This document shows, in pieces, positions 20,405-63,645 of a stretch of DNA of 64,000 bases. The position numbers and the translations under genes were made by a program. The stretch covers positions 17,238,501 through 17,302,500 of the forward strand of contig NC_135247.1 in the NCBI RefSeq assembly GCF_947623445.1, given 5' to 3'. The stretch comes from Clavelina lepadiformis. Taxonomy: Eukaryota; Chordata; Ascidiacea; Aplousobranchia; Clavelinidae. How positions within the stretch are numbered: the first letter of the stretch is position 1; each line of letters starts with the position of its first letter. Under the pieces are notes generated by a model. The model was not told the origin of the DNA. It made no database searches and saw nothing but the letters and a program-made list of their open reading frames with translations.

Positions 20405-23400
20405 TCATAATGTATAATTTACTGAAGCTATTAATGGTAGATGCTCTGGTGTTGTTACCTTTTCATCATGGTTTTGTTTCATGATACTTCTTCGTACAAC
20501 AGCATAAAAGAAAGAACCGCCCAAAACCATCATATTACTCAACCACCACAAAGCTGTCTTTGGCATTTGATAATACACCACCGCTAATATTGTTTGCGCA
20601 CATGCTTTTGCCGTTCCGCTGATGTTGTGGGTAAGAGGAGTTGTAACCTGTTGCAAATGATCAGCAATAATCCACTAATTACGCTGTTAAATGCTTCCCA
20701 ATGTTGTAGTGTGACTCCCACCTGTATTTGCCATGTTGAAATGAAACCAGTCATGAAACCGAATACACCAACAGTCACCATCACAAACCACAGATACCCA
20801 CTAAATATACCTGGGTAATTTCGAAGAGCAGAAATGTCCCCAGACATTAAAAGAACAGGCAACATTAAAATGCATGAGTTGAGATTATTGTAATAACCTG
20901 TAAGACAAAAACAGCCGTTTATGGTTTGTTCAAGTTGATTGACAAGCATCAGTATAATTCAAGGTATGTGAAACACAACAGTTTTTTCTACACCAGCATA
21001 AAATAGAAATACATACAGTTAAATGGTTTACGACTTCCATTTAAAATACAAACATTTGACATAAATATGCATAATATATTTTGATGTCGGACAGTTCTAG
21101 GAAAATGTTTTAAAGCGTATAAGAGGCAAGAAACATTTCTGTACTTACCCAACCTCCAGAGATTTTGATCGACCGCTGGTAGTACTCTAGAAGTCAATAT
21201 GGCATTTAAGCTTACGAACAAGCTAGAGACAATCCCATACCATACACCAGAATATGATAAATCAACCAAGGAACCTTCTGTGCTTACACCAAGCAAATAT
21301 CCTGCATGGAAAACCCTTTCAATAAATTAAAAAATATGTACTAGCTAAGCAAAATTACTGACACACATAAGGTTATCGATTAATAATAGCCTGCTTGAGT
21401 ACGATAATTTAGCAAAGCTAAAATAGGACACATAGTTAATGTATAATTTTGCAATATAGCATAAGAGATAAGATAGTATTGTATAATTTGTATCCTATAT
21501 GGCACTTTCAAAATTTAATCACGGAAGCTACCTGCGATAATTACAAGGCAGCAAAGCAATGCTAGTGGAGGTGTAGTTCTCTTCAGCACAAAGTAAGACA
21601 GTGCCACGTTAAATAACGTTGTCAATGAGCGTCCCATATTGTAAAACGCCACACCAAGCTCTCTTAGACAAAGATTATTGAAAGTAATCATCAATACGAA
21701 GCAAATTGACACCGGTAATACCTCTCTTGATATTTTTTGGTCAAATCTGTCATAAATGATTAATGTGTATTTCATGTTCAAGTAAAACTATACTGCTACA
21801 CTTTAATGCAAAATATGTGTATATATGTATATATCATACTGTTTACAATTTAACCCACCTAAGTGATGGAAATTTGCTATCTTTTCTAAACCGAGATAAG
21901 AACGAGACAAAATGGCAAAGTACAACCGCAACAAAGCACTGGAATGTTGTCGTGAAAATTGGGGCATCCAACTTTAGTTGTTTGGACTTCAACAACTGCT
22001 TGTTCAAGAACACCATTGTAATCGAAATAAACCTGCAAATGTAGATCATGTTTTCAGATTTTGATGTATAAATTAGCATAAACTGACAACTACAAAATCT
22101 GCAATGTGGCCTGACCTTAAACTAGACTCAAATTGTTTACAGTACGTTGCGAAAATCGCATTCAAAATAATTAAGATCAAAGGGAACTAAACCTATAACA
22201 GCTCTGTACTAATGAAATATCCAGCAAATGCTATAAAAATGCAATCTGGATTGAAATAAGAAGGTATGTCAATTTTGAATGAGAAATAATGCGCACAGTG
22301 GAAAATTTATTAGGCTGTTACAGTGTGTACTGATTTTTTGTTTATTTCTTACAAATTAGTGTTTAAACACTTAACTGTGTGCCTTGTTTCCTTAAAATAG
22401 GAGTGGGCTATACTGGGGTGATTTTTCAAAAACAACAGAACTGGAGTTTAAAAGGTGCCTATAGACATACCTAGGAATGTTTAAAAAAAATTTTTTGATT
22501 TCGTGCAAATTCCGGATTGAGCCCGGACTTTATGTGAAAAATTCAAGATGGCCGCCATACAAATAGACAAATCTGCAATAAATCTGCTTCCTGTCAAGCT
22601 TTTGGGCTGATTTTGGTGTCAAAAGAAGCAGAAAGTTGAGTTAGCAACACATGTTCCTAAACACATACTGTGCAAGTCACATGTGTGTGAGAAATTGGAT
22701 GAGTCATGCCTACATGTCCTAAAATCAGCAGAAGTCCAAATCGGTTTATGCCAGATGTTAGAGAAACGAGAGCCGAGACTGAAGTCATACCTTCGAGTAG
22801 GCAAGTCAATTATCGCCTCAGTTGTAGTCCCGACTCTAGTGAAGCTTGTGGCTAGGGGTGGTGATGGCAAGACTACTTCCATGGCAGACGAGTTTAGCTT
22901 GGTGTTGGAGGAGAATGGTACTCACAAATCCTTCTCGCTCTATAAAGACCGCAGATTCACAAGATTGGGTCACACTGCTGGTGCGTTGGTTGATTGTGTT
23001 CTCCATTTCAAGAAGATGCTATCCAGAACTAGCAAGAATAACCTCCTTGTCAGAGCCTGTTCCCTTTACCTGGAGAATGAGTTCATTGTGGCATCACTAA
23101 AAGCATTGTCTCACTTCTGTTACAAGGTGACAATGTCTTACCTCAACATGGTAGAGCGTTGCCAGCAATCCGACCTCGTCCGGATCCTTCCTAAACTATA
23201 CAAAGATCTTGAGAGGGCTAATCTGGAAACCCTGTCTGAGTTCCATGTTCCCTGGAAGCATGTGAATGCTGAATCATACAGCCCCACAACAGACCTCGAC
23301 CATTACTTAGTTACTGCTATGGCCAAGCAGAGTGCACTTGGCCTCAAGATGCAATGTGGAAGAGAGTACTGGGAAGACGAGACAGAGAATAGTGAGAGGA

Positions 23401-26134
23401 GTACAAGGATCCATACACTAACTGAAGAAATGAGGGTAAACCTCCCCACAGAGAACTTGCTTGCAGAAAGATACTTAGCCCGATTCGGAAATCTTGCAGG
23501 ACTGTCCGCAGGACATTCAAATAGATACTTTAAAGCGAAACGAATAAAAGATGATCTAATGTTTGCTAAAGATGCACCAATTGACAGTGAGCTAGAATCC
23601 TGTAAAGTGATGAAGAAGTTAGATGAAATGGAGATTGCATGGACAGAGATACAAAAAGAATTGATGAAAACTAAACTGAAGGAACGCATTAAAAAAGCAG
23701 GAGGGAGGGAGATTTCCTCAACCACCTGGTGGATCAATGTAAGGGACATGGGGGCCCAATTACAAAAGTAGAAGAGCTCCGAGCTCTGCCAACAGCATCA
23801 TCATCCACGCTGAAAAAAATCATCCGCATGGAGATCCAGTACCAACGGATGATTCATCCACACGACAGCCAGGCAAATCCTAGCCTCTACTAAGTAAACA
23901 GCTTGAATGTAGATACCATGCTGGTGAACCTAGCTGTGATTCTTGGAACTGAGGATGAGGATGTTGGGACCATCTTCCCAACAGAAGATGAGGTATATGC
24001 CATCTTAACCTCTACTGCTGCAGCTTCCTCTGTTGACACAGATCAACCAGTGAAAATGTGTATTGCAGCAGCAATTCCTGAACTCCATAAAGAATACCCT
24101 ATAGGAACGAATGTGGCTGTCGTGTGGGACGGAGAAAACAATCAACATCAGTGGTTTTTGGCAAGGGTCTGCCATTTAAACAATGATGGCACTGTACAAT
24201 GTGACCACTACCAGCGGGTTAACGATAACAACAATACGATGTGGAGGAGACGAAAAAGAGATGACATTCAGGATGTTATTCCTGTTCAAATCGTCCCTGT
24301 CACAGTAGAGACTGAATGGGTGTTCCAAGGTGTGACGACCATTGTGTCGTTACTAAAGTGTATAAATGTTTCTCAAATCTCTAGTGTATTTCATGACATT
24401 TTTATGTGAATTTCATATACCGGTAACAAGTTATTTGTATATAGTGTTGAAATTGTCATCATTATTCTTGGATGCGACCAGCAATCTAAAATTGCACCAA
24501 CAAAAATGAAAAAATTATGAAAAATAATGACCAAAATATAATAGTTTCAATGTTTTAGGAAACTTTCAAGCATGCTGGGGTTTTTGTTGCTGTTTTAAAG
24601 TAACAGGCTCAATTTTCTGCTTCTTTTGACACCAAAATCAGCTCAAAAGCTTGACTGGAAGTAAATTTATTGCAGATTCGTCAATTTGTATGGCGGCCAT
24701 TTTGAATTTTTCATATAAAGTCCGGGCTCCATCCGGAATTTGAACAAAATCAAAAAAAATTTTTTGCACGTTCCTAGGTATGTCCATAGGCACCTTTTAA
24801 ACTCCAGTTCTGTTGTGTTACTTGAAAAAAGTCAAAATCACCCCAGTATAGCCCACTCCTACTTAAAATATAAACCAGACTATACTTAAAACTTTAGCAT
24901 GCAATTTAATATGTGTTATGCACATGTCATGTTCTACAATTTTTCCATGTAATGTAAATATTTCATACTGCATATTCATCATGATTGGAGGATATCAAAG
25001 TTTTGATAACATTTACATAATGCAAAGTAAACAAAATTCAGACATTTTTTCACACATTTTAGCTACTATTACCAAAGCTACAGAGTCTAAATACGACAAG
25101 GGTGCATTCCATGTGAGTTACATCGAAGAGCAGCGTAAAATTGGTTTAACTTAAAACTTTAAATTTATTTTGCTCTTCCATTTTTCTCCTGTTTAAATGA
25201 AAAAGAGCACAATATCTCCTTTTTTGTAGAGATTGGCATAAAGCCTTATGGCATATTCAAAAGGTACACAAAACTGACCTTCGGTATATGCATAGCATGG
25301 AATGCACCCTGGAGATATGATTTAGTTCATGACTATAAAATGACCAACTTTCCTTAAAAAAATATACATATGACATTTTTTGATAACTCAGGTATAATTC
25401 AGAATTTGCAGTTCAGTCGTGTGCAGAATTAAGCTAAACATTGCAATAAAAGTAGCTAAAATTGTTTTTTTGGTCAAAAATAATAATGTCGATTTTGCGC
25501 CTCTGTTAAAAAAGTTTGCATCATAGTTTTTTGATGGCATTTTATGGAATGATAGTCCAAAGCATACCAAAGTTTCATGCAAAATTTCAGAGAGCCCCAT
25601 GGAGGATTTTTAGAGTAATCAGTTTTTTATCAAATTCACTGTATAATAAAAGAAACCAAAATTTTATGGTATTTTTTGCTATTTGGCGGCACCTTAGTGA
25701 CTGATGTATGGAGCTATTGCAGCTACTTGCAAGCACCGGAGACAAACATACACAGAGATCAGAATTGTTTGGTTTAAAAGATCTAGAATGGCATAGTAAA
25801 CATCACATTTTGCCTTTCTTGTAACAAGTAGTGTATTGGGAAAATAATCAGAAGTTTGAAACTTCTTTGTGTCATTTTTGCAAAACTTAAAGAGATCATT
25901 TTAAGTGTTTTAAAACATATGACATTTTGTGGTTATATACTGCATGTCTTACATTCACAGCCTCTAAATACACAACAGTCACACTGAATAGGTAATAATA
26001 TATATACATGAATATTGGTCACCCTATTAAACCACTACGCCTATTCATAACGACATTAAAATTTAAACTTACCAATAAAGAATAACGACAAAGCCAATCT
26101 TCAGAGTTTTTCTAAAAAACGGTTCTTCTGCCAT
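20405..26134 (-). CDS. SLC35C1: GDP-fucose transporter (solute carrier 35C1)
   Basis: Golgi nucleotide-sugar antiporter that brings GDP-fucose into the lumen for fucosylation of glycoproteins, including Notch. Six exons, reading downwards: 26134-26073, 22032-21859, 21746-21532, 21301-21149, 20897-20722, 20647-20405; 340 aa against 364 in human. The match runs almost end to end: [12 protein letters not shown], the core [18 protein letters not shown] with [32 protein letters not shown], and the signature [17 protein letters not shown] followed by [13 protein letters not shown]. About ten membrane helices are expected. The start codon at 26134 opens a short cytosolic N-terminus and joins in phase to a TGG split by intron 1. 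That intron is 4 kb long because of an inserted transposon; the other introns are 74-251 bases. Confidence 0.93.
22683..23771 (+). pseudogene. Transposon ORF 1, probable transposase part, frameshifted
   Basis: A 362-residue open frame starting just inside the left inverted repeat. It is well composed for coding and has blocks such as [19 protein letters not shown] and [14 protein letters not shown], but I recognise no named domain. Near 23700 the frame appears to shift within a run of GGGA repeats: the downstream frame stays coding-like up to a stop near 23890 and then leads into the next open frame. I read this as a DNA transposon gene that has decayed by one frameshift and one stop. Cys/His pairs near the end (DQCKGHGG in the shifted frame) could be metal ligands, but this is a guess. 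Confidence 0.55.
23903..24409 (+). pseudogene. Transposon ORF 2, C-terminal part with Tudor/chromo-like barrel
   Basis: A 168-residue frame in the same reading frame as the shifted end of ORF 1, so the two were probably one protein. It contains [20 protein letters not shown] followed by [11 protein letters not shown], the pattern of a small beta-barrel (Tudor, chromo or SH3-like) in which a Trp/Tyr pair and an acidic loop recur. Similar barrels sit at the C-terminus of some transposases and integrases and bind DNA or chromatin. The assignment rests on pattern only. Confidence 0.45.
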
Positions 26135-50425: not shown

Positions 50426-53400
50426 TTAATAATCTGAAGCTTCTTTGAGCTTCCTCTTAACCCACGGCATCATCCGCAAGACGTTTGTGTAGTATCCTGG
50501 AAAAGGTTTGGTAATGCCTTCACGTCGGTATGTTTTCCAACAACCAAATGCAGAGGATACGATGCCAAGTTGTACCCAACATGACTCAGCAGTGGACGAA
50601 TCATAAACCTGAAAAGTAACGTTGTTATTATTTTACCTTTTAAACCTGGCTCCTTATACTTCATGGTTTTTGTTAACAAACAGCGATGGTTAGCTGAAAT
50701 ACCAAGCCGCACTCACCTGACTAACTAACGGACCACCACCGTCTCCTCGACAAGAACTGACATGTCTTTGTTCATTTTTAGGCACAGCACAAAGTAAGTT
50801 GTCTGTATATTCAAGTGGCGGAAGGGACCCAACGTATTCAGGGTTAGTTACAATACTTCGACATCTGAAAGGAATAGCTGAGTTTAGATTATACATTCTA
50901 ACAAAGTATTGAAAATAATTTTCTTATCCTGCATATAGTTTCAGATTGTTGTAAAACTTGCAATGCATCTTCTTCTATCTGCACTAATCCTTGTCTTAAG
51001 ACATCGGTTAATGCTTGAAGCGGAGGTCGATCACTTGACGAGAGAGGTAGCGTGTATCCGAACCCTGTGATAACTGCCAGATGACGTTTCTTAGCTCGTC
51101 CAACCTCAAATAGAAAGTCATCTGTAAACAAATGACGTATCGTAAATTACATTCTATTTGAATAAGACTGACGATACTAGACAGTAACAGCAGGCGAAAT
51201 ATATTTCTGTCTTAAGATTTTACATTGGTTAATTATGACGTATGGTAAATTGGTAGGGTGTGGTATGGTAATCTTGATCCTCTTGAAAGTCTTTGCACGA
51301 CTTGAACCCGGCTATGATTCCTTGTCGCTCACGCCCCGATTTTCGAGCTAGTCTCGGTGCAAATTCAGATTGCCACCTATTTTTCATACTGATTTTATAT
51401 ATAGCTTTTCTCGAATTTAGAACGGCCCAACAGGTCAACTGAACAGGAGCAAGTGTACTTAATGCCTTGCCCAAGGGCATTACAACGGTATAGCACCACT
51501 GGGGATCGAAACAGGGTCCGCATCTACTTTGACGCCAGTTCTCAAACCACTCGGCTACCGAGTTGACATTAGTTATAGGCCCACATTATTTTTGTGACAA
51601 TATATAGGAAATCATAAAGTTTACTTTGTATTCTGCAACTCTCTTCTTCAGTTTCACTTCCATCCAAAAACGAATATTTTTGAAGATAGTTTTCAACGCA
51701 GTTGTTCTCCATACAAGGCAAGCAAACCGGACGTATATATTCAGTGAAGTTGACCCATCCAACGTTTGGTATTCTATCTCCCCAAGTTGCTCCGTTTGTC
51801 AATAACTGATCTCCAATTTTAATCTGCGGTTTATTATTTAAATAAACTAAACTGGTTACCAAACAGGTTATAGGTCAGCTATAAACCTGCGTCACTCTCA
51901 AGAACAAGTATCATCAAAAGAAAAATGAAAGAGTGTTAGAAGCAAGTTGTTACAGCAATAACTTAATGCTCGTGCAATCATAATCACTTGTCTTCTTGTA
52001 AATTATATTTTGTAGTTTTAGAACCAAAGGTCAACATTTCTTGACGTAAACGTCCCTAAATGCCTCGCATGCTTGACTTTACATTACTGTCGATGAACGA
52101 TTTTAGCTTTATCTAGAGTTTTCAAGACATACTTACAAGAGCAACATCATTGTTGAAGTGGTCATAATTTTCATGAATAATGATTTGTTCAGAATAATAT
52201 ACTTTAACAGTAGGTGGAAGCCCTTCAAATATGGGCCGTCTGTGAAGCCCTATTTGAAAAGAAAAACATACCAATGCGATAGTGTTTCCAGCTATTTAAA
52301 GTTAACTTTTCTAAGCTTAATAAGACAAGGCTCAAACCTTACCATAAGTTACGAGCACTCTGCCGCTTTCTGTCCTAAAGACCTGTGCTGCTGTTAAAAC
52401 CCACCGGTTATTGATCACGCTACCACTACCTCTGAACGATGGTTGTCGATATGTCTATGATAATGACAAATATTTAAGTGATAGATCAGCCAATAATAAA
52501 CATTGCTATCATCTTTCAGATGTGTGTTACCAGTACGAGGTATACATGGTTTCATTTCAACACTCCATAGACTATCTGTAAAGTTTAACGTGATTTTATG
52601 ACTGCATTAAAAGGCCTATCGAGTTAAGGCCAAACACATATAAATCATGACTTAAAGAATGATAATTACACGTTATGCGCAAATAATTATTATATAATAT
52701 TATTAAAACAAAAATATATTATGCTGGATATGGGTAAGTTTTTCAGTCTACAAGTTTGCCACAAAAGCACTTTTTCTCTACGAAGACATTTGTTTTACCA
52801 TCCGTACCCTTTGACTTGTTTTGTATTCTATCAGTTTAACCTTTCTGCTTTCAATATTAAAACAAAAACCCATAAACTAGTTACACCAAAGCACACAATG
52901 TATCATCCTGAATATTCAACCAAGTGAAATAGAACATGGCTGATATTTAAACCAAACATAGGTTATGTTGGTATTTTTATTCAAAATGCATTTACTAGTC
53001 ACAATGTCACTATACCATGTGACAATTGTAACATTGTTCGCCTCAACCTGAAATTGCATTTTTATATAAATTTGTTTCTTACGCTGTGAAGAATTCATCA
53101 GAGCTTCTTTACTCGAGTACTAATTTCTCAGTACTTGGTTGTATTTGATTTTTTTTTAAATACTTGAGTTGGTACTTACCTATCATTTTTATAGTTAATT
53201 TGTTACTGCATATTAATCCTTCTTAAATAAGTTTATCACACTATATAAGCTGAAGCAACAGTACAGTACCGTTCGTGGCATTTTCCGAAGCATTTTTTAC
53301 ACCATTACCCTTTTGATTATTATATTCGCCTACTATGTTTAAGAATGAAAGAATTCAAGAATTATTCTGCAATGTTTATATTCCAGTGCTAGGGTACCTA

Positions 53401-56400
53401 TGTTGAGTACTTGGTACTTGCGGTTTGGCCTGGTACTTGAATCTCTTTTACTTGTACTCAAGTAATAAAATTAGTACTTGTATATACAGCTCTGGAGTTC
53501 ATATGTTGTATGAGAAAAAAATTCAGTTTCACACTAAACATTTATGCTCTGCTTAACAATAAAATGATAGCAGCAAAGTCTGTGATCACCTGAGATATGC
53601 TATGACGGCGTTCTGTTATGACAACATGCCAGGGCCATGCTCTGTCAGTCGCTTCATCACCATTCATGATCCTGTCTAATCGTGCTTGTTCTCTGATGCT
53701 GCCAACGTCACCAGCTTTCCCACATACACTGTAGTCTAAACAGATTTACAAACAATAAAAAAAGTTTAAAATGGCTTTTGTTTCATGCTTCATGGCAAAT
53801 CATTGCTTTTTATCAAATAGATCAAATAATAAATCATGCTGGGAAGGCATCTGTAGCTTCTGTTATTTCTTTTTCTGTTATTTCGATTTCAATGTTGTGA
53901 TTTATGCATTGAAGGATTTTAAGACAAGTTCAAATACGAGCAAAATAAGTAAAAAATCGTAATAAGGCTGATTATCCTGACAAGTTTAGGAACACACTAA
54001 GAGAGTAAACAAGCAAGAGTTTTATTCAGCGTCAGATTCAAATTTATCAATAAAAGTTTAAGCTATGAAAACAAAACTCGGCAGTAAAATATAATGGTTT
54101 TGTTTCAAGTTTTTCACTGCTTTTCTTTAATATTTGAACCAAACCTGTTCTGGCATCTGTGATTTTATCCAGCGCATCATTTATCAGATAAAAATCTTCA
54201 AGCAAATGCAAATTTTTATCATTATCCTGAGAAAGTTGAAAAAACTCAGTGTAAGCGTCCTCATCCAATCCTGGCTTCACACAACGCACGCAGCCGGTGA
54301 CCACATAGAACTGCGATAATTGTTTCAACAAAGTTTCAGTATAACATCAAACATTATTTCAGTATAAATAATAAATATAAATAATAAATAATAAATGAGA
54401 ATAACCAGCAATACAAAAGCATAATTCCTACCATAGGTTCCTGTGTAGAAGAACTCAAACTAACCATGGAAAACGAGGGAGAAGGTCCCAAATCTCGAAC
54501 CCCTTAAGATAAAATACGGATAAAACTGTATGACATCTATTTCAAACGATTCTTTCTAAAAGAATTTTTTCTGATAGACTTAACACAATACACTTTATAT
54601 ACTACAATTTGTCAAACACCCGAAATGTTTAAATTGAAACAACATCAAAAATATTACAAAAAATTAAAGTCGTTTTTTTCTAATTTTTTAGTATAATTTG
54701 ATGCTTTATACTTAACACGTAGTGGTATATTTACTACTACTTTCCATTTACTACTTACTGATATCAAACACACTAACATGCTTTAACTGATACAAATACC
54801 TTCAAGAAACAAGAAGATGTGATGTTTTGAATTAAGCTTGACTTGATGTTGTAAAATATTCATTGAATCTGCCACAGATTCTAAAGCTGCTGATGTATTT
54901 CTTCCTTCGCCTATTTCTCTTCGAATTGATTCTGAAATCGAATTGAAATTTTAACTAATACTTGAACTTGCAGAATAAGATGTTATATTTTAAAGGTTTT
55001 TGACTGCATTCACCTCTGCTTTTGTAGATACCATAAAGCCTGTCTTTCACAGCGTAACACATAGATGGGTTATGACGAACAAAACACCGATTGCCCAAGA
55101 TCCATTTTGTTCGTGAAGCAAATACAAGGATCTTTATAGTTGGTCTATTTGTATTTTCTTTTAGCTAAATCAAATTTTTATAAAAGTTATTAACAGGTTT
55201 ACAATATTATCTTATAAAGCCAAACTAAAGCTTTAATTTATTGAATAAAGTTAACCAAATAATTTATTAGCCAAGACACTACACAAATGTTTTGCAACTC
55301 CTTTCTCCACAAAACTATACGCTAAAGAATTACCAAATAAAAATACACATTCCTCAAAAAATTCTCCAAGCAAAACTTTTTATATAATGCGTACTTAAGT
55401 ATGAAGAAGCATCACCAAATATTAATCGTGTAAAGACCCAACGCAGTTTGACGATTTATATACTGCGATAGCATACCACCTCCTGAATACTTACTAACCC
55501 TCTGTGCAAGTCTCGCAGCAAACGTAACAGAATTAGTCAAGGCTTCATCAGAGACTTTACCGGAAAGATCAAACACAAAATATATCTCGTGACCAGCTTG
55601 ATGTGAAGCAGAAATAAAACTTGGTTTGTTATCTGCAAGACATGTAACATTTACAAATAGAATAATGTCATGGTGTATTGTAACCAATTCATACAAAAAC
55701 GTTAGACCTACATAAAATTTGAGAAATACAACAAGTAGAATATCAAATGACTGACGTACAATATCACTAAAATGAATCACGTATTTACCTACACATGCGG
55801 GTGGTGGTTCGGTCCATTTCCCATCTCGGCATATTGATCTAAGAGATCCATGTTTGTTACCAAGCATATGATATCCTTGATTACATCTAAATTCTACCAT
55901 TAAAATGAGAACTTGTGGAACAAGACGTCTGAAAAAGCTGTTAGGATTTGGCACGGGATCAGCGCAATCTGTCTCTAAAAAGACAGCTTTTAAATTAAAA
56001 ACCAGTTTGGTCACTTACCATAAAACTTACAACAAAACATTGTGCAACAATTATGATAGGGTATCTGATTTGCATCTTTACACTGTCAGTTGAAAAATCA
56101 AAATGAAGACTTTTCATTCATTCTATCCATTTTACTTGAAAGTTACATTGCAACAGAATGTGACATCATGAACACCATAAATAATCGTAATTCACTTTTT
56201 ATGCAAAATAAAGTTCTTGGTGATTAAAAAAGTGGCAGAGAGATTAATCCCGTAAAAACAAAATCACAAATTTTTAAAACACACTCAAAGTATTCATGAG
56301 AATCTGACCCAAAGAGTTGTATAATATCAAAGATGTAAAAAATATACTCACTTCTACATAATGGTGAGGATCCAGACCACCACTTATCAGATCTACATGT

Positions 56401-59400
56401 TCTGTTTCTTGTACCTACCAATGTATAACCAATCTTACATGTGTAAGTTATTGTTCTACCATGTTTTCTTCCTCCATTAATCAACCCATTCTGTATTGGG
56501 GTGGGGTCATCACAAATTGCATCTAAGAAAAAAATGTTAGTTAAAATATTTTATCTAGGTTTTACCGTGTAAACTTAACCCACAGTGGCCTAAATAATTC
56601 TTGAATTCAAAATTATAACTTTGAAATAATATAAAGTAATTCACCAAATAGTTTTCGCGTAGGCTTCGGATCGCAATTATTACATAGTAATAGTGCAGAA
56701 AACAAGCAATACTCTGAATGTAACACCAGGATAATTAAGATTTAAAAAACGTGAAAATTTAAGCAAACCAGGATTAAAACAAGACATTCCACAAACATCA
56801 TCGCATCTGCATCGTTTCGATGCTCCCCGGCAATCTGCATCAGTCTGACAAGATTTCCTGCATTGTCTTCCTTCTTCGACAAGTGTCAAATTTCTCGTGC
56901 AACTCTCTACTTGGGCTGCATAAAAAATAGGATTTCTAAAGTTCCAGTAACATTGAGGAAATGTGAGATTATTACCTTCAAATAAGTTGTTCTTCAGCCA
57001 TGGAATCAGTGGCAATAGGTTCGTATAAAAGCCGGGATAAACCACTCTTGAGTTGTTGACATAGGACACAGTGGCACAACCAAAACCCCAACTTACAATG
57101 CCAAGTTGAAGCCAACAACTTTTGCCATTTGCGTTACTTTTAACCTTGCAGATATATATTAATATTGTAAAAGGGTTTCATTTAAATAAGCTTACAGAAA
57201 ATGAAAATATATATTACATATATTGTCGTACTACCTGTCTCACTAATGGGCCACCGCTGTCTCCGAAACAAGCATCTACAACACGTTGAAGAGTACCGCC
57301 AACACCACACATCATTCTGTCGGTGAATTGAACAGTACTTGCAAGTCCGTCCTGAATCATAGCTGGAACTATTTCTCTGCATCTACACACAAGCAGTGCA
57401 ACACGCTTAACATGACAGGTACTATCTCTTGGTATGTAAACACAGGCAGTCCAAGCACACTTAACGTGATGTGGAGGAGGACTTAACAAGCAGTGCAAGC
57501 AAACTTTAACACAATGCAGACCTTCAACTAGAGAGCTGACATACAAATAGTTTGCCAAAAGTATTTTGCCAGAATTGAACAAAATACAGTTTTTGAGCTA
57601 ATTTCTGATATGATATAAATATCACAAACACAAACCATAAACATGACATCTACCTACATCACAATTTACAGCACACAAGTCAACTGACAAATGTTTGCAG
57701 TATATGCAGTATGCTTATTACATTAAAAAAGAAAAACGTTGGTTTGCATTTCTAAAAGGGAAGCCAAACTGGTAAAACCTTGCATTTTTTCTTAGTCTTA
57801 TTGCTGCTTGTTTTAAATATTCTGCCTTAAGCCCTTGTTCAGTGATGCCAAATCCAGTTATTGCAGCCAAGATATTTTTAGTATCTCTATCATCTTCCTG
57901 ATATATCCAGGCACCTTAAAAAATAACGAAAGAGTAACCACTGTGCATTTTATCTGTAAACAGGCGAACAGTACCTTCTTTTCTACACCTTATATCTTCA
58001 TTCTCTGCTCCATTTATTATTCCTAAACTTCTCAGATGATCTCCAGCACAATTGTTCTCCATGCATGGCAGACAAACTGGTTTTATGTAAGTTGTGTAAT
58101 TCAACCAGCCACCTTCGTTTGTCTGCTGCCATTGGTTGCCATTTTGATTATATTGTCTGCCAACTTTTATCTGGAAATTAGTTTCATTTCGGATAATTTT
58201 ATGGAATAAGCTGCAAACTAAAACTATTTCCAAGCGTCATCAAACGTACACTGTAATTTGCTGAGATTGCACGGTGCTGAAAACATATCTTTAGTAGAAA
58301 TACTATATAAAAAGTCCGAAATTTGCAGCGCAGAGCATACACATTCATCTAAGCCATTAACTGTTTACCAAGATTCAACAAAAATACAATTAAAGCTTTT
58401 TTATTTACATACCAAAGCAATATCATAATCATAGTTCTCTGGCGTTTCTCTGTAGCTTGGGTGAATGATTACTTGAGCTGCATTGAATATTTTCACATAC
58501 TGTGGTAGCACAAAGTTTTCTATGCTTTGAATTCTAAAAATACCTATAAATATTAAGATTAATCAGATAAAATGGGTTTTATATAATGAACTTAAAATGC
58601 ATTGTAAAACAGCAGAGCTTCCAAAACTAACTTCATTTACCGTAAGTCATTGGGTAACATTTTGAATACTCAGGAACATAGCACAAAAATTTCCTTTGTA
58701 ACACGCTTACCAAATGTCACCAAAATACTTTGTTCCCAGTTTCCAGTTTTCTTAAAAGCTGTGTCATTATTAAACAAATGAGCAGCAGTGAGGACCCACT
58801 TATTATTTATCAAAGATCCACCGCCACGAAATCCACCACCACGGCCACCAGCGTACGTCTAATTAAAATATCAAACAGAAATCTACAAAATCACCAGGTT
58901 TTGAAGAACAACTGAACATACCAATTAGAACACTTACCTTAGAAACCGTAGAACGCTGTATTGTGACAACAACTTGCCAAGGCCATGCCCCAACATTGGC
59001 GTTGTTTCCATGAATAATTTTACCGATTCCCAAATTTTTTCCTATTGCACCAATATCACCAGCTTTGCCACATTCATGCAAAGTGTTTTGAACAATGCCT
59101 ACATAAATCACAGTATTTAACACACAGATAAAAAATAGCACTTTGCATAACTCTGGAAGTAATGGATTGGTGTTAAACATTATACAAGTTATTGACATTT
59201 TGTCAATTTTTGCCCATTAATTAATTATCAATTGAATACTACTGACAATTAACTGCTGTATATTTTGTCAATGACATCAATTAAAACTAAGTGCTGATGC
59301 AAGAAATGTTTTCACATTGCAATAAGAAACCTGTACAAGTAAAAATACTCATACACAAGATACCTTGTCCTATGCCACACTTGAAACAATTATACAGATG

Positions 59401-62400
59401 GGAAATGCATATTTTTAACTATGAACAAATTATTTACTGACCGGCGTTTTGTTGATTTCGAAGATTATTAATATTGGGATTTGGCAGAAATCTTCCAAAT
59501 GGTGCGGCAAGTGATTGAAGTTCATTATACGAGCGTGCATCTTGAAAACCATTTCCAAACGATATCACATAAACCTGTAAAAATTCACAAAGAAAGATAA
59601 TATAATTGCAAATTTTTGTTTGTCAAAATTTAGTTGTATTAATTAATTTAGTTGGCATTTATTATTCAATTATATTTATATATTTTATTTTTTGCCACTG
59701 ACTGTAGGGAGCGAAAATATAGGTGCTAACCTTGTCATAGCAAAACATAACAATAAATAGGCCCACAAACAACCAATGAGCGAGAACAAAGTGGCAAAGC
59801 CCAGAGGCTCAAAACATGATGTTAACTATATGCAGTCGTCTTACAATGTTGAAAGGTGAGGGAGGCCACCGATTCCAAAATTAACAGATTTTGTTTGAAA
59901 AGAATTGCAATTGATGACAAATCAATTACGTAATAACTGAAAAACATAAATCTGTTCACAAATAAAGAATTAACATTAACCTCTTGCAAATTTCCTTCAT
60001 GATTTCTTTTGATAGCTTCCATTTCTGCTACAGGGAAACCCCCTTCATCATTCCGCCCTGTAAGTGTGACAAAATATCACCGACTACTCTTTAACTGCAT
60101 TATAAGCAAAACCGAAAATTTCCAGTTACAGTCAGTTCACAATAAACAAACACCTAAGAAATACTAGAAGTAGACAATGATATAGCACACCTGGCTTGTG
60201 ATATAATTTTAAAACGACAAAGTTAGCATAATCGACCAATAAAAGAGTTGTATTCAAAATTTTTATTATACTCAATGACATGAAAACTGAGTTTACTCTA
60301 CATAAAAACTATTCAGGATTTTTTAATAAATAAAGTTTGAAGACAGAGGAGGTGGGGAGGCTCCAGGAATCCCAGTTACAGCTTGTTTTGGTGCAAATTT
60401 TGAAAAACTGATGAAAGTCATCCAAAGACTTTCTTAACTCTGAGGACAAAGATTATGATGATGACGTTATGATTATGGTTATGATAATTATGATGATGTC
60501 ATGATGACACCACCACAAATAGATATTTTTTATTTGCATTTTTAATCTTTTTATGATGTTTAAACTGCAAACTATATATAGTCTATCATTTATAACAGCG
60601 TGGTCCAACTTCTTTTCATCGCGGGCCAAAATCAGAAAATTTTTTTATCTTGTGGGCCAATGTTTATAAATCAGAACTGAAGAAATGTGAAATTAGAACT
60701 GAAAAACAATGTGACATTGATATTAGAACTGAAACTAGAATAGTTCAAAATTTAGCGATTAAATGCTGATCAATGTGACATCTGCGGTCGAGGTTCTTCC
60801 TCGACAATAGCGACTATCAAAGCTGACTATCAGTTCGCGGGCCAAAAAATCAGTGCTCGCGGGCCAAAGTTGGCCCGCGGGCCTGCAGTTGGACCACGCT
60901 GATTTATAACATTGCTTCTTGGTTGTTATAGTAACTAAAAGGCTTTGAGCTTGTAAGTTGAAGTCATTTGAAAACACAAAAAATGAGTTGTTTTTTTTTC
61001 AATTGTTGCAATGCTACCTATGTCTAGCAAGATTAATAGCTGTATTAGGTTCATCAGGAACAATTGGTTAGTATTCACCTAAAAACTACCCTAAATCTGG
61101 TATTGCCCGTGTCATTGACTAACCATTTCCAATTTTATTATTTTCAGAACGATGTTTGGTCAAGTAATGGTCAGGAGTCAAGTAATGTTCGATACCACAA
61201 ATGAAAAGACTAGCCTGCCATATGGGTAATATTTTATAAACAAGCTGCACATGTAAAGTGTTGCACATTAATTAATCAGTCCTTAATTGTGCCTTTGATT
61301 GTTGAAAACCAGACAAAAGCCAAAAAAACATCTCATCAGAAGTAGGTAAAATCATCACTCATTCTAAACAACAAAAAAGTACTGTGTGCACTTGGAGCAC
61401 CTTGTGCTGGTGAGTAAAAGTACAAACTCACCATGAACAAAAAGGAAAATATAGCGTTGAGCATCTCTGTTAGCAATAAATGATTGTTGAAGCATTTCAC
61501 CAAGGGTAGATAATGCCAAGTGAGTATTTCTGCCGTAACCAATATCTTGAAGCAGTTTTTCTACAGAAAAGTATTCAAATAAATCCTAGAAACAGTTAAA
61601 CAAATTTTCTTATGCTATTTTCACGTAGATAAATGATGTAAACAGGTACAAGACTTACGTCGATTTCTTAACATTTCATTCAATACCGCAACAATGTTTG
61701 GAGTTGTGCTTATTGCCAGGTCAAAGATGACACGAGTGTTTGATGAAAATGAAATAACTGCAAACTTTACTTGTTGACCAGCAGAGAACTGTAATAGATA
61801 TCACAGGATTTAAACATAAGATCATTCTCGTAAGACTACAAGTTATGAAGTTAAACGTTCAAATAAGGTAACATTGTTGTTGAGACAAGAAACATGTTTT
61901 GACTTAAAATAAACGAATTTTGAAAAACTTTACCACATTTTGAAAACGAACTATGTAAAAAATGATTGCAATGATTTGAAGCGTGAGTTATGTGAAATGA
62001 AGCTCGATGATTTTATCATCTAGTTAGAATCTCGTTGTATGAAAGTCTATAACGTTACAAAAAAAAACAAACTCTTTACTTACAGCCAATATGCGATCTT
62101 CTGCAAACTTTATAGAACTTCGAATCAAATCAATCCTAACATCTTCAGATATGTCAATGATGATGTAGATTTCTAAACTACTGGATTGATCAGACAACGA
62201 GGAACCACGTCCAGCACCAGCACCTTGTAATAGCGCTCTTGAATGTTCTGTTGCTCTTTGTAGCTTTGCAATCACATAATCATTGCTTTGTGGGAGTTTG
62301 GGGTCTGTTGATTTTGTTAATACTAAGTTGAAAATGAAAAATATACATAGCGCATTGTTCAAACAATATACAAATGCACAAGTGACTTTCATTTCAGCTG

Positions 62401-63645
62401 AACACTGTCTATATGTACTAATTTACAAACTACTGCTATTTCTAAAGTGCATTTATGTATCTATATGAAGTTACCAAATACTAGGACACTTGGTGCTACA
62501 TGTAATATTTTTTAATGAACAACTACACAATCAACTTATCACCATACTACTAACTTACAACTCATTCATTGTCTATTGATATGCCATGAGTTTCACCACA
62601 AAGCATCATGCTGTACAAGTATGAAGCATACCTATGCACTTTGGGCTTCCTCCACCACTCCATTCTAGAAAGTAATAGCACTCCTGGCGAGCTTCACCGA
62701 CCATTACATAATCAGGATCACATTCAAACTCGACAAAGTCGCCAACACTGAAATTTCCTCCCAGTGTAAGGCGACCATTGATAGGAATACCGGGATGAGG
62801 ACAACGTACTTCATTGTCTAAAGAATAAAGTATAATCAAATCAGTGTGTGATTAGCATCACTAAGTCTAGCTCACAAACAAACCAAAGTACGAGTCTGAT
62901 GCTCTAATTTTCACACAAATCATCTGACAAAAACTTGGCCAACAGGCTCAGACAACAGTTACTCTATTTTAGCTACAAACGCCATCTACAGCCCTGTAAT
63001 CGGTGTCCTGTTTTGATGGCAACAGATATTAAGGTTGACTCCAGAAAGGAAAAACCATGAAACATATTTCGATATTATTTCTGCATGAACCAGAAAAAGT
63101 TAAGTATCCACAATTTTGGGAAAGGATAGCTGAGCTAATGAACTATCAACGTAATTTGAGTTTCAGTTCTTTCTATAATTCCTAAAAGTTGTCAGTTAGA
63201 ATAAAATCTGAAAAATCTCACATTTAAAAGCAGCTAAATTTAACATGCTTACTAATTATTCCTTTTACTTGAATTCTTGATGCAAACATGTTATTTTTCT
63301 TTCTATGTGTGCATGTCTCAATTCTATTTAAATTCAAAATAAGCTTATATTGTTACGACCGTACCAGTTCCAATAAGTTTCACAAAAAATACAATGTAAA
63401 ATTATGGAAAAGTTTTTTATGCTCATATGTTATATTCATAACCATACCTATTGTATCACAAACAGTGTCCTCTCCACTCCATAGACCACTCTCAAGACAA
63501 GTCCTCTTACCACTTCCAAGCATCCTTCTTCCAGAGAAACACCGAAGAGTGATTTCGTGACCAACATAGAATGGTCCAGGCAACCCATAAACAACTCTGC
63601 CTCCCATCAGTTGAATAGAAGTTAAAGGATTGCTGCATGTTATTC
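50426..63645 (-). CDS. Fused double complement factor B-like protein (5' end unresolved)
   Basis: Complement factor B/C2 family, with the whole CCP-vWA-protease cassette present twice. Twenty-nine exons read downwards, first 63645-63448, then 62818-62632, 62322-62084, 61788-61659, 61560-61432, 60057-59981, 59574-59442, 59098-58938, 58858-58711, 58543-58413, 58170-57975, 57914-57779, 57382-57235, 57144-56976, 56915-56769, 56522-56352, 55974-55789, 55632-55499, 55164-55014, 54931-54800, 54502-54432, 54310-54145, 53735-53590, 52454-52343, 52249-52137, 51823-51625, 51121-50929, 50864-50717, 50608-50426. All phases agree, giving about 1477 codons. Order: CCP, CCP, vWA, active-type protease, WAP, CCP, CCP, vWA, inactive-type protease. 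Factor B binds C3b and, once cut, forms the C3 convertase. The signal peptide was not placed with confidence, and the gene may continue beyond the window. Two separate genes are possible but would need a promoter, a leader and a terminator within about 250 bases. Confidence 0.8.
51385..51567 (-). mobile_element. tRNA-derived SINE, copy 2
   Basis: Same family as 26400-26570. On the minus strand: TCGGTAGCCGAGTGGTTTGA (A-box-like), TTTCGATCCCCAGTGG (B-box-like), then GCCCTTGGGCAAGGCATTAA and CTCCTGTTCAGTTGACC. It lies in an intron of the second factor B unit, in the same orientation as the gene. Confidence 0.75.
53099..53494. mobile_element. hAT-type MITE in a complement gene intron
   Basis: A 396-bp element with ends CAGAGCTTCTTTACTCGAGT and, on the other strand, CAGAGCTGTATATACAAGTA, rich in AGTACTT/AAGTACT motifs. 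Flanks GAATTCAT (53091-53098) and GAGTTCAT (53495-53502) form an 8-bp duplication with one mismatch. CAGAG ends and the 8-bp duplication point to hAT. Confidence 0.7.
54359..54397. repeat. ATAAATA simple repeat
   Basis: Short tandem ATAAATAATAAAT tract in an intron of the complement gene. No function implied. Confidence 0.6.
56769..56915 (-). other. WAP four-disulfide domain exon between the two factor B units
   Basis: One exon encodes EEGRQCRKSCQTDADCRG, then CRCDDVCGMSCFNPG, with eight cysteines in whey-acidic-protein spacing. WAP domains often inhibit serine proteases or act on microbes. Donor and acceptor phases (1 and 1) fit both neighbours. If the donor is not used, the frame continues about 30 codons to a stop near 56680, which would end the protein here as an alternative form. 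Confidence 0.75.
59690..59820. repeat. Dispersed repeat, copy 4 of 4
   Basis: Lies in an intron of factor B unit 1. Shares TTTTTTGCCACTGACTGTAG, GGAGCGAAAA, GTGCTAACC and GGCTCAAAACATG with 32218-32370, in the same order. Confidence 0.5.
60460..60512. repeat. Imperfect GAT/TGA trinucleotide repeat
   Basis: Run of GATGATGACG, GATTATGG and GATGATGTCA type units in an intron. A degenerate microsatellite. Confidence 0.5.
60596..60901. mobile_element. hAT-type MITE in a complement gene intron
   Basis: A 306-bp element with perfect 14-bp inverted ends CAGCGTGGTCCAAC and GTTGGACCACGCTG. An exact 8-bp duplication ATTTATAA flanks it (60588-60595 and 60902-60909). The interior repeats GCGGGCCAAA near both ends, a typical subterminal transposase-binding pattern. 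No coding capacity. Confidence 0.85.

Follow-up and report, generated by a model that had tools for sequence, protein, structure and literature searches.

Factor B and C2 of the complement system are single-unit proteins, in which CCP domains are followed by one vWA domain and one trypsin-like serine protease, the vertebrate forms having three CCPs. The factor B proteins of the ascidians Ciona intestinalis (P0013/P0014) and Clavelina lepadiformis (P0008/P0011) have the order WAP-CCP-WAP-CCP-CCP-CCP-vWA-protease (by eye), stop at the protease of their single vWA-protease pair and retain all five residues of the metal ion-dependent adhesion site (MIDAS) of the vWA domain. Polyserases probably belong to another protease lineage and are not known to contain factor-B-type vWA-protease pairs. 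Human polyserases 1-3 are reported to have several protease domains per chain, some of them inactive (PMC1435904). The gene considered here lies on the minus strand of a 64,000-nucleotide window of the 209-Mb C. lepadiformis genome (contig C8, 17238501-17302500; coordinates without contig name are window positions). Its N-terminus and first unit have the domain order of ascidian factor B, but a second CCP-CCP-vWA-protease unit follows in the same frame. This is most likely one gene for a single predicted secreted protein, and we are reasonably confident that the best overall explanation is one secreted double-unit chain, fused from two factor-B-type lineages, which is probably not a classical convertase subunit.

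An exon model drawn by eye, prior to database matching, comprises 34 exons, in phase and free of stops, from the ATG at 68122 to the TAA at 50426, with a predicted product of 1704 amino acids. Once one acceptor is moved by 18 nucleotides, from 62322 to 62304, it equals the NCBI prediction ‘uncharacterized protein LOC143468357 isoform X1’ (P0001) at 1704/1704 residues. The first-pass annotation of the window had the units and their junction right, but the gene begins about 4.5 kb further upstream than it proposed. A signal peptide exon (68122-68068) and the exons for WAP1, CCP1, WAP2 and CCP2 (after 68068, down to 66562) lie outside the window, with a TATA-like TATAAAAA about 110 bases upstream of the ATG (by eye). 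The portion in the window (63645-50426) opens with unit 1: CCP3 (63448..63645), CCP4 (62632..62817), a vWA domain at 59442..62304 in five exons (62304-62084, 61788-61659, 61560-61432, 60057-59981 and 59574-59442; the acceptor at 62304 per NCBI) and a serine protease in seven exons (56976..59098). The WAP3 exon (56769..56915) links the units and ends in phase 1, as do both N-terminal WAP exons; WAP-CCP is an exon pair repeated within the gene itself. The junction intron (56523..56768; donor CTG/gtttgc, acceptor tttcttag) is followed by unit 2: CCP5 (56352..56522), CCP6 (55789..55974), a vWA domain at 54145..55632 in five exons (55632-55499, 55164-55014, 54931-54800, 54502-54432 and 54310-54145) and a serine protease in seven exons (50426..53735). 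Within this second protease lies a 97-nucleotide GC-AG intron (50865..50961; donor ATT/gcaagt), the only one of the gene with a non-GT donor. The GT-AG alternatives enumerated for this boundary between the fifth and sixth protease exons were rejected, as they lose conserved residues at the end of the one or the start of the other, or need a 25-nucleotide intron. Both the GC-AG intron and the junction splice are also in P0001; in the NCBI pipeline, such an intron and numbered isoforms can be a sign of transcript support. In Pfam, residues 1-1020 matched Trypsin, Sushi, WAP and VWA, unit 2 matched Trypsin and Sushi, and the exon between the units, taken by itself, was recognised as WAP. The CCP-vWA-protease order of factor B and C2 is found in the gene, with the unit 2 VWA at 19.9 bits, under the Pfam curated cut-off of 23.8.

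The first-pass annotation had held that one CCP-CCP-vWA-protease unit continues in phase into another by way of a WAP exon, from 56769 to 56522. The 34-exon frame and the identical NCBI model bear this out, and the coordinates, the phase (1) and the length of the intron (246 nucleotides) proved exact. AATAAA, ATTAAA and TATAAA are all absent from this intron, in line with what had been noted of its AATAAA and TATA motifs, and it contains no usable start, its single ATG running into a stop at once. The claim that no signal peptide precedes the second CCP pair also holds: the first in-frame Met of unit 2 is its residue 83 (residue 95 in the paralogue described below), which does not lie in a signal peptide (by eye), and a spliced leader at 56522 would therefore yield no signal-peptide product. 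An ATG at the beginning of CCP5 falls outside the reading frame. The last protease exon of unit 1 has no stop and splices, or reads via a 60-nucleotide intron, into WAP3. Since this intron is open and in frame, no stop codon closes unit 1 ahead of the WAP domain.

The same architecture is found at a second locus on the chromosome. P0002 (LOC143468237 isoform X2, 1717 amino acids) maps exactly to C8 17028235-17015145, in 34 exons with GT-AG introns throughout and a junction intron of 317 nucleotides. All 34 exons have the same phase as in the present gene and 22 of them the same length, and the proteins are 68% identical over 1694 aligned codons (60% over residues 600-1680), while the introns barely align. 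This recurrence makes an error at the junction improbable. At a third locus, about C8 17049600-17035039, the protease-WAP splice is seen in the DNA and WAP-CCP in the NCBI model P0029, which begins within the unit 1 protease; an in-frame TGA in the CCP4 exon of unit 1 marks it as a partly decayed copy. By these predictions the double-type loci on the chromosome are three. Near the third locus, C8 17052109-17052333 and 17079305-17079478 also match factor-B-type protease exons. Between the first two loci the rate of synonymous substitution (dS) is 0.23-0.65 through WAP3 inclusive and 1.1-2.5 after it, so that the two halves have had different histories since the loci parted, for which patchy gene conversion would be the likeliest cause.

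The origin of the two units was addressed with a tree of 29 protease domains, from 26 of the 43 proteins returned by two database searches (one partial P0029 domain was dropped, and proteins first found in a third search were not added), and a tree of 25 vWA domains; groupings were tested with the approximately unbiased (AU) test after the tree had been seen. An internal doubling of one unit was rejected, since a clade of unit 1 with unit 2 is rejected for the protease (p-AU 3e-6) and for the vWA domain (p-AU 3e-15), and the units therefore stem from different factor-B-type lineages. The unit 1 proteases of the loci pair with full support (100/100), and one clade of unit 1 with the tailed class, a group of factor-B-like proteins with a protease-WAP-CCP tail, is not rejected (protease p-AU 0.086). 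The unit 2 proteases fall within a clade of the Clavelina factor B proteins P0008, P0011 and P0012 (95/93), where that of the paralogue is sister to P0011 (99/93) and that of the third copy to P0008 (100/99); the three as one group are rejected (p-AU 1.3e-4). Their vWA domains, however, form one clade (99/96). Taken together, the two trees point to a single origin of unit 2 and, at two of the loci, to a later replacement of its protease by factor B modules, no such event being visible in the present gene. Most likely, a MIDAS-less factor-B-like unit, of the class that often has a protease-WAP-CCP tail, would have been joined to the vWA and protease domains of a canonical-type factor B. Other Clavelina members of the family have such tails as well (by eye): in P0003, P0004, P0006, P0007 and P0009 the protease is followed by WAP-CCP, as in unit 1, and none has two vWA-protease pairs. 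Matches to tailed factor-B-like genes at C8 ~18.645-18.711 Mb and 18.725-18.790 Mb have identical scores and a near-constant offset of 79473 bases, which would mean either that the segment was duplicated very recently or that the assembly duplicates it falsely.

The catalytic triad H57-D102-S195 is intact in 25 of the 29 protease rows. The exceptions are the present unit 2 (Q, D and G), unit 2 of the third copy (D102N), Styela P0032 (S195T) and the second protease of P0005 (S195N). The earlier view that one half is active and the other dead fits the residues of this gene, as unit 1 has the triad, a basic residue before IIHG and D189, and unit 2 keeps D102 with H57Q, S195G and D189S. A ‘dead second half’ is not general, however, because the second protease of the paralogue keeps its triad. 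The MIDAS ligands of C2 are D-S-S-T-D (D260, S262, S264, T337 and D376), reported to be invariant across 151 sequences of C2 and factor B (PMC9797810); the Thr was placed by aligning canonical P0008 to C2 and, by counting, is the first T of GTNT. At these positions unit 1 has D,S,D,R,H and unit 2 D,S,K,R,E, that is, the second Ser, the Thr and the last Asp are replaced in both (S to D, T to R and D to H; S to K, T to R and D to E). The same three are lost in all five double-type vWA domains examined, namely both units here, both of the paralogue and unit 2 of the third copy, a count that leaves out the unit 1 vWA of the third locus. In 12 of the 25 vWA rows all five residues are kept, which corresponds to 12 of the 13 single-unit factor B types; the site is broken in the other 13 (the five double-type domains, five tailed Clavelina proteins, P0015, P0005 and P0032). 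Human factor B is cut in a linker ahead of the vWA domain, reportedly at R234-K235 (PMC8222914). By eye, unit 1 has an Arg-containing linker before its vWA (GAGRGSS) and unit 2 runs from the CCP directly into the vWA without a linker (KPSFIS vs GRFIS in the canonical protein), with the proviso that the human cut site may not be the ascidian one.

Several observations weigh against one fused chain of this origin. The fused frame is known here from genomic sequence and predicted models. Among the 66 donors and 66 acceptors of the two double-unit loci, no donor scores below that of the unit 2 GC-AG intron, and the WAP3 donor is the seventh weakest here and the second weakest in the paralogue, whose junction intron contains AATAAA; a unit-1-only protein could therefore arise by intron retention or early polyadenylation, and a regulated short unit-1 form is possible. 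For the vWA domain, the tree and the AU test neither establish nor reject a grouping of unit 2 with Clavelina factor B (p-AU 0.49), and several long branches, such as that of the present unit 2 (0.66 in the protease tree, 1.17 in the vWA tree), make placements unsure. The stop in unit 1 of the third copy indicates that decay does occur in the family. One explanation, which we regard as fairly unlikely, is that the frame is real and that retention of the junction intron yields mainly unit 1 with its WAP domain, unit 2 being a minor or regulated extension. This would agree with the weak WAP3 donors of both loci, the AATAAA of the paralogue and a unit 1 frame that stays open through WAP3 and into the intron as far as a TAA at 56682-56680. 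However, the read-on tails of the three loci have no common sequence (by eye), the present junction intron lacks both AATAAA and ATTAAA, the CCP5 acceptors are strong (62nd of 66 here, 66th in the paralogue), and both loci are in the database as the full double form, with no unit-1-only entry among 92 matches (from the 7994 best candidates scored; clusters may hide short isoforms). That unit 2 is a separate gene, for example operonic and served by a spliced leader, and the fusion an artefact of prediction, is very improbable. Gene prediction does merge tandem factor B genes, as in the 1669-residue ‘complement factor B’ of the caecilian Rhinatrema bivittatum (P0054), where the two units are connected by a long linker with an internal signal-peptide-like stretch (by eye). 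Unlike P0054, the present gene has no such linker and no internal start, the first in-frame Met being residue 83 of unit 2; the out-of-frame ATG of CCP5, the missing stop ahead of the WAP and the recurrence of the junction at the second locus also argue against an artefactual merge.

The second half might instead be a decaying relic, still read and no longer under selection. H57Q, S195G, the GC-AG donor and the long unit 2 branch in both trees would fit such a relic, as would the third copy with its stop in unit 1 and D102N in unit 2. Yet unit 2 stays open over 690 codons and 14 exons, an outcome never reached in 2000 neutral simulations for each of the three neutral shares assumed, and 20 of its cysteines are common to unit 2 of the paralogue, with two found only here and none only there. 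The ratio of nonsynonymous to synonymous substitution (dN/dS) between the first two loci is 0.15-0.38, hence below 0.4, in each of eight segments, although this value is rough for unit 2 because dS is near saturation there, and, being an average over both loci, is no test of the dead half of the present copy alone. Such a relic is in our view quite unlikely. Slightly less probable still is the proposal of the first-pass annotation, a C3-convertase subunit in double form with one half active and the other a regulator. The domain order and the intact triad of unit 1 speak for it, as does a fold model of P0029, the protein of the third locus and not of the present gene, whose top 30 structure matches are all factor B and C2; with a mean predicted local distance difference test score (pLDDT) of 69.5, unreliable first 112 residues and low template modelling (TM) scores, the model was used for fold kinship only. 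Nevertheless, the loss of three of the five MIDAS residues in each examined domain makes a classical C3-convertase subunit unlikely. Unit 2 is also without a linker, and two loci that match P0008 exon by exon (C8 18075126-18081547 and 18089287-18095349; the MIDAS codons there were not read) are present on the chromosome, so the double protein probably adds to factor B and does not replace it. The picture of ‘two complete factor B units’ acting as a double convertase subunit is hence not supported, given a MIDAS broken in unit 1 and unit 2 alike, the absence of a linker from unit 2 and the different lineages of the units.

The claim of a new architecture for the complement system is upheld in part: apart from the paralogous loci, two vWA-protease pairs are found in none of the other aligned ascidian factor-B-like proteins, while ‘double convertase subunit’ finds no support. 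Three protein database searches, covering few tunicate species, returned 28, 21 and 92 matches, the best ~8000 candidates being scored in the latter two, and the only double-unit tunicate proteins among these matches were P0001 and P0002, with P0029 as a truncated third. No description of a double factor B or of a Clavelina factor B was found in the titles and abstract openings of the open-licence papers that the literature searches listed. As far as these searches reach, the predicted protein is public but undescribed. Like the polyserases, the double protein has several protease domains in one chain (two, one with an intact triad and predicted to be active), but both proteases fall among the ascidian factor-B-like proteases, in a tree without polyserases, and matches to polyserase-2 in the database were far weaker than those to factor B. 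P0005, probably from Styela clava, has two proteases with one vWA, and its second protease lacks the catalytic Ser, as does unit 2; the placement of its first protease in a different clade suggests that this double protease arose separately. In the Styela clava proteins P0046 and P0053, and in P0005, CCP-WAP-CCP-protease blocks are joined to more proteases, TSP or vWA (by eye). Among solved structures searched by sequence, the vWA-protease part of unit 2 had thrombin as its one match (cut-off 1e-12), and the corresponding part of unit 1 had none (1e-18). With its CCPs included and a cut-off of 1e-3, unit 2 matched CCP proteins on top, and factor B, C2 and many thrombins were among the best 60 of 408; the vWA of canonical P0008, as distinct from the present gene, found C2 and factor B. 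Elsewhere in the window, a stop-to-stop open frame of 386 amino acids on the plus strand (22611-23771) was assigned no identity.

A single fused double-unit chain, which we continue to favour, may be envisaged as a haemolymph protein with six CCPs rather than a classical C3-convertase subunit, and the usual C3b docking is probably not to be expected of it. Unit 1 would be a trypsin-like protease, activated by cleavage before IIHG, and unit 2, in the present copy, a catalytically dead binding module that might compete with or steer canonical factor B, or recruit substrate for unit 1. A trypsin-like unit and a dead unit on one six-CCP chain would fit a regulator, a decoy or a substrate-recruiting protease. 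This mode of action is tentative, every biochemical role in it being read from sequence. Doubtful, though worth stating, is the wider proposal of a new class of the complement family, in which a factor-B-like protease is tethered to a factor-B-derived pseudoprotease of another lineage, both freed from Mg-dependent C3b docking, to serve as a built-in regulator or decoy of the alternative pathway that is diversified by exchange of protease modules with canonical factor B genes. The locus offers a case of likely module exchange among related immune genes on one chromosome, and raises the testable question of what role a vWA-protease may have without Mg-dependent C3b binding. If the conserved double chain, with every examined MIDAS broken, is true, the factor B scaffold would have been recombined, and removed from its classical docking, in a close relative of the vertebrates.

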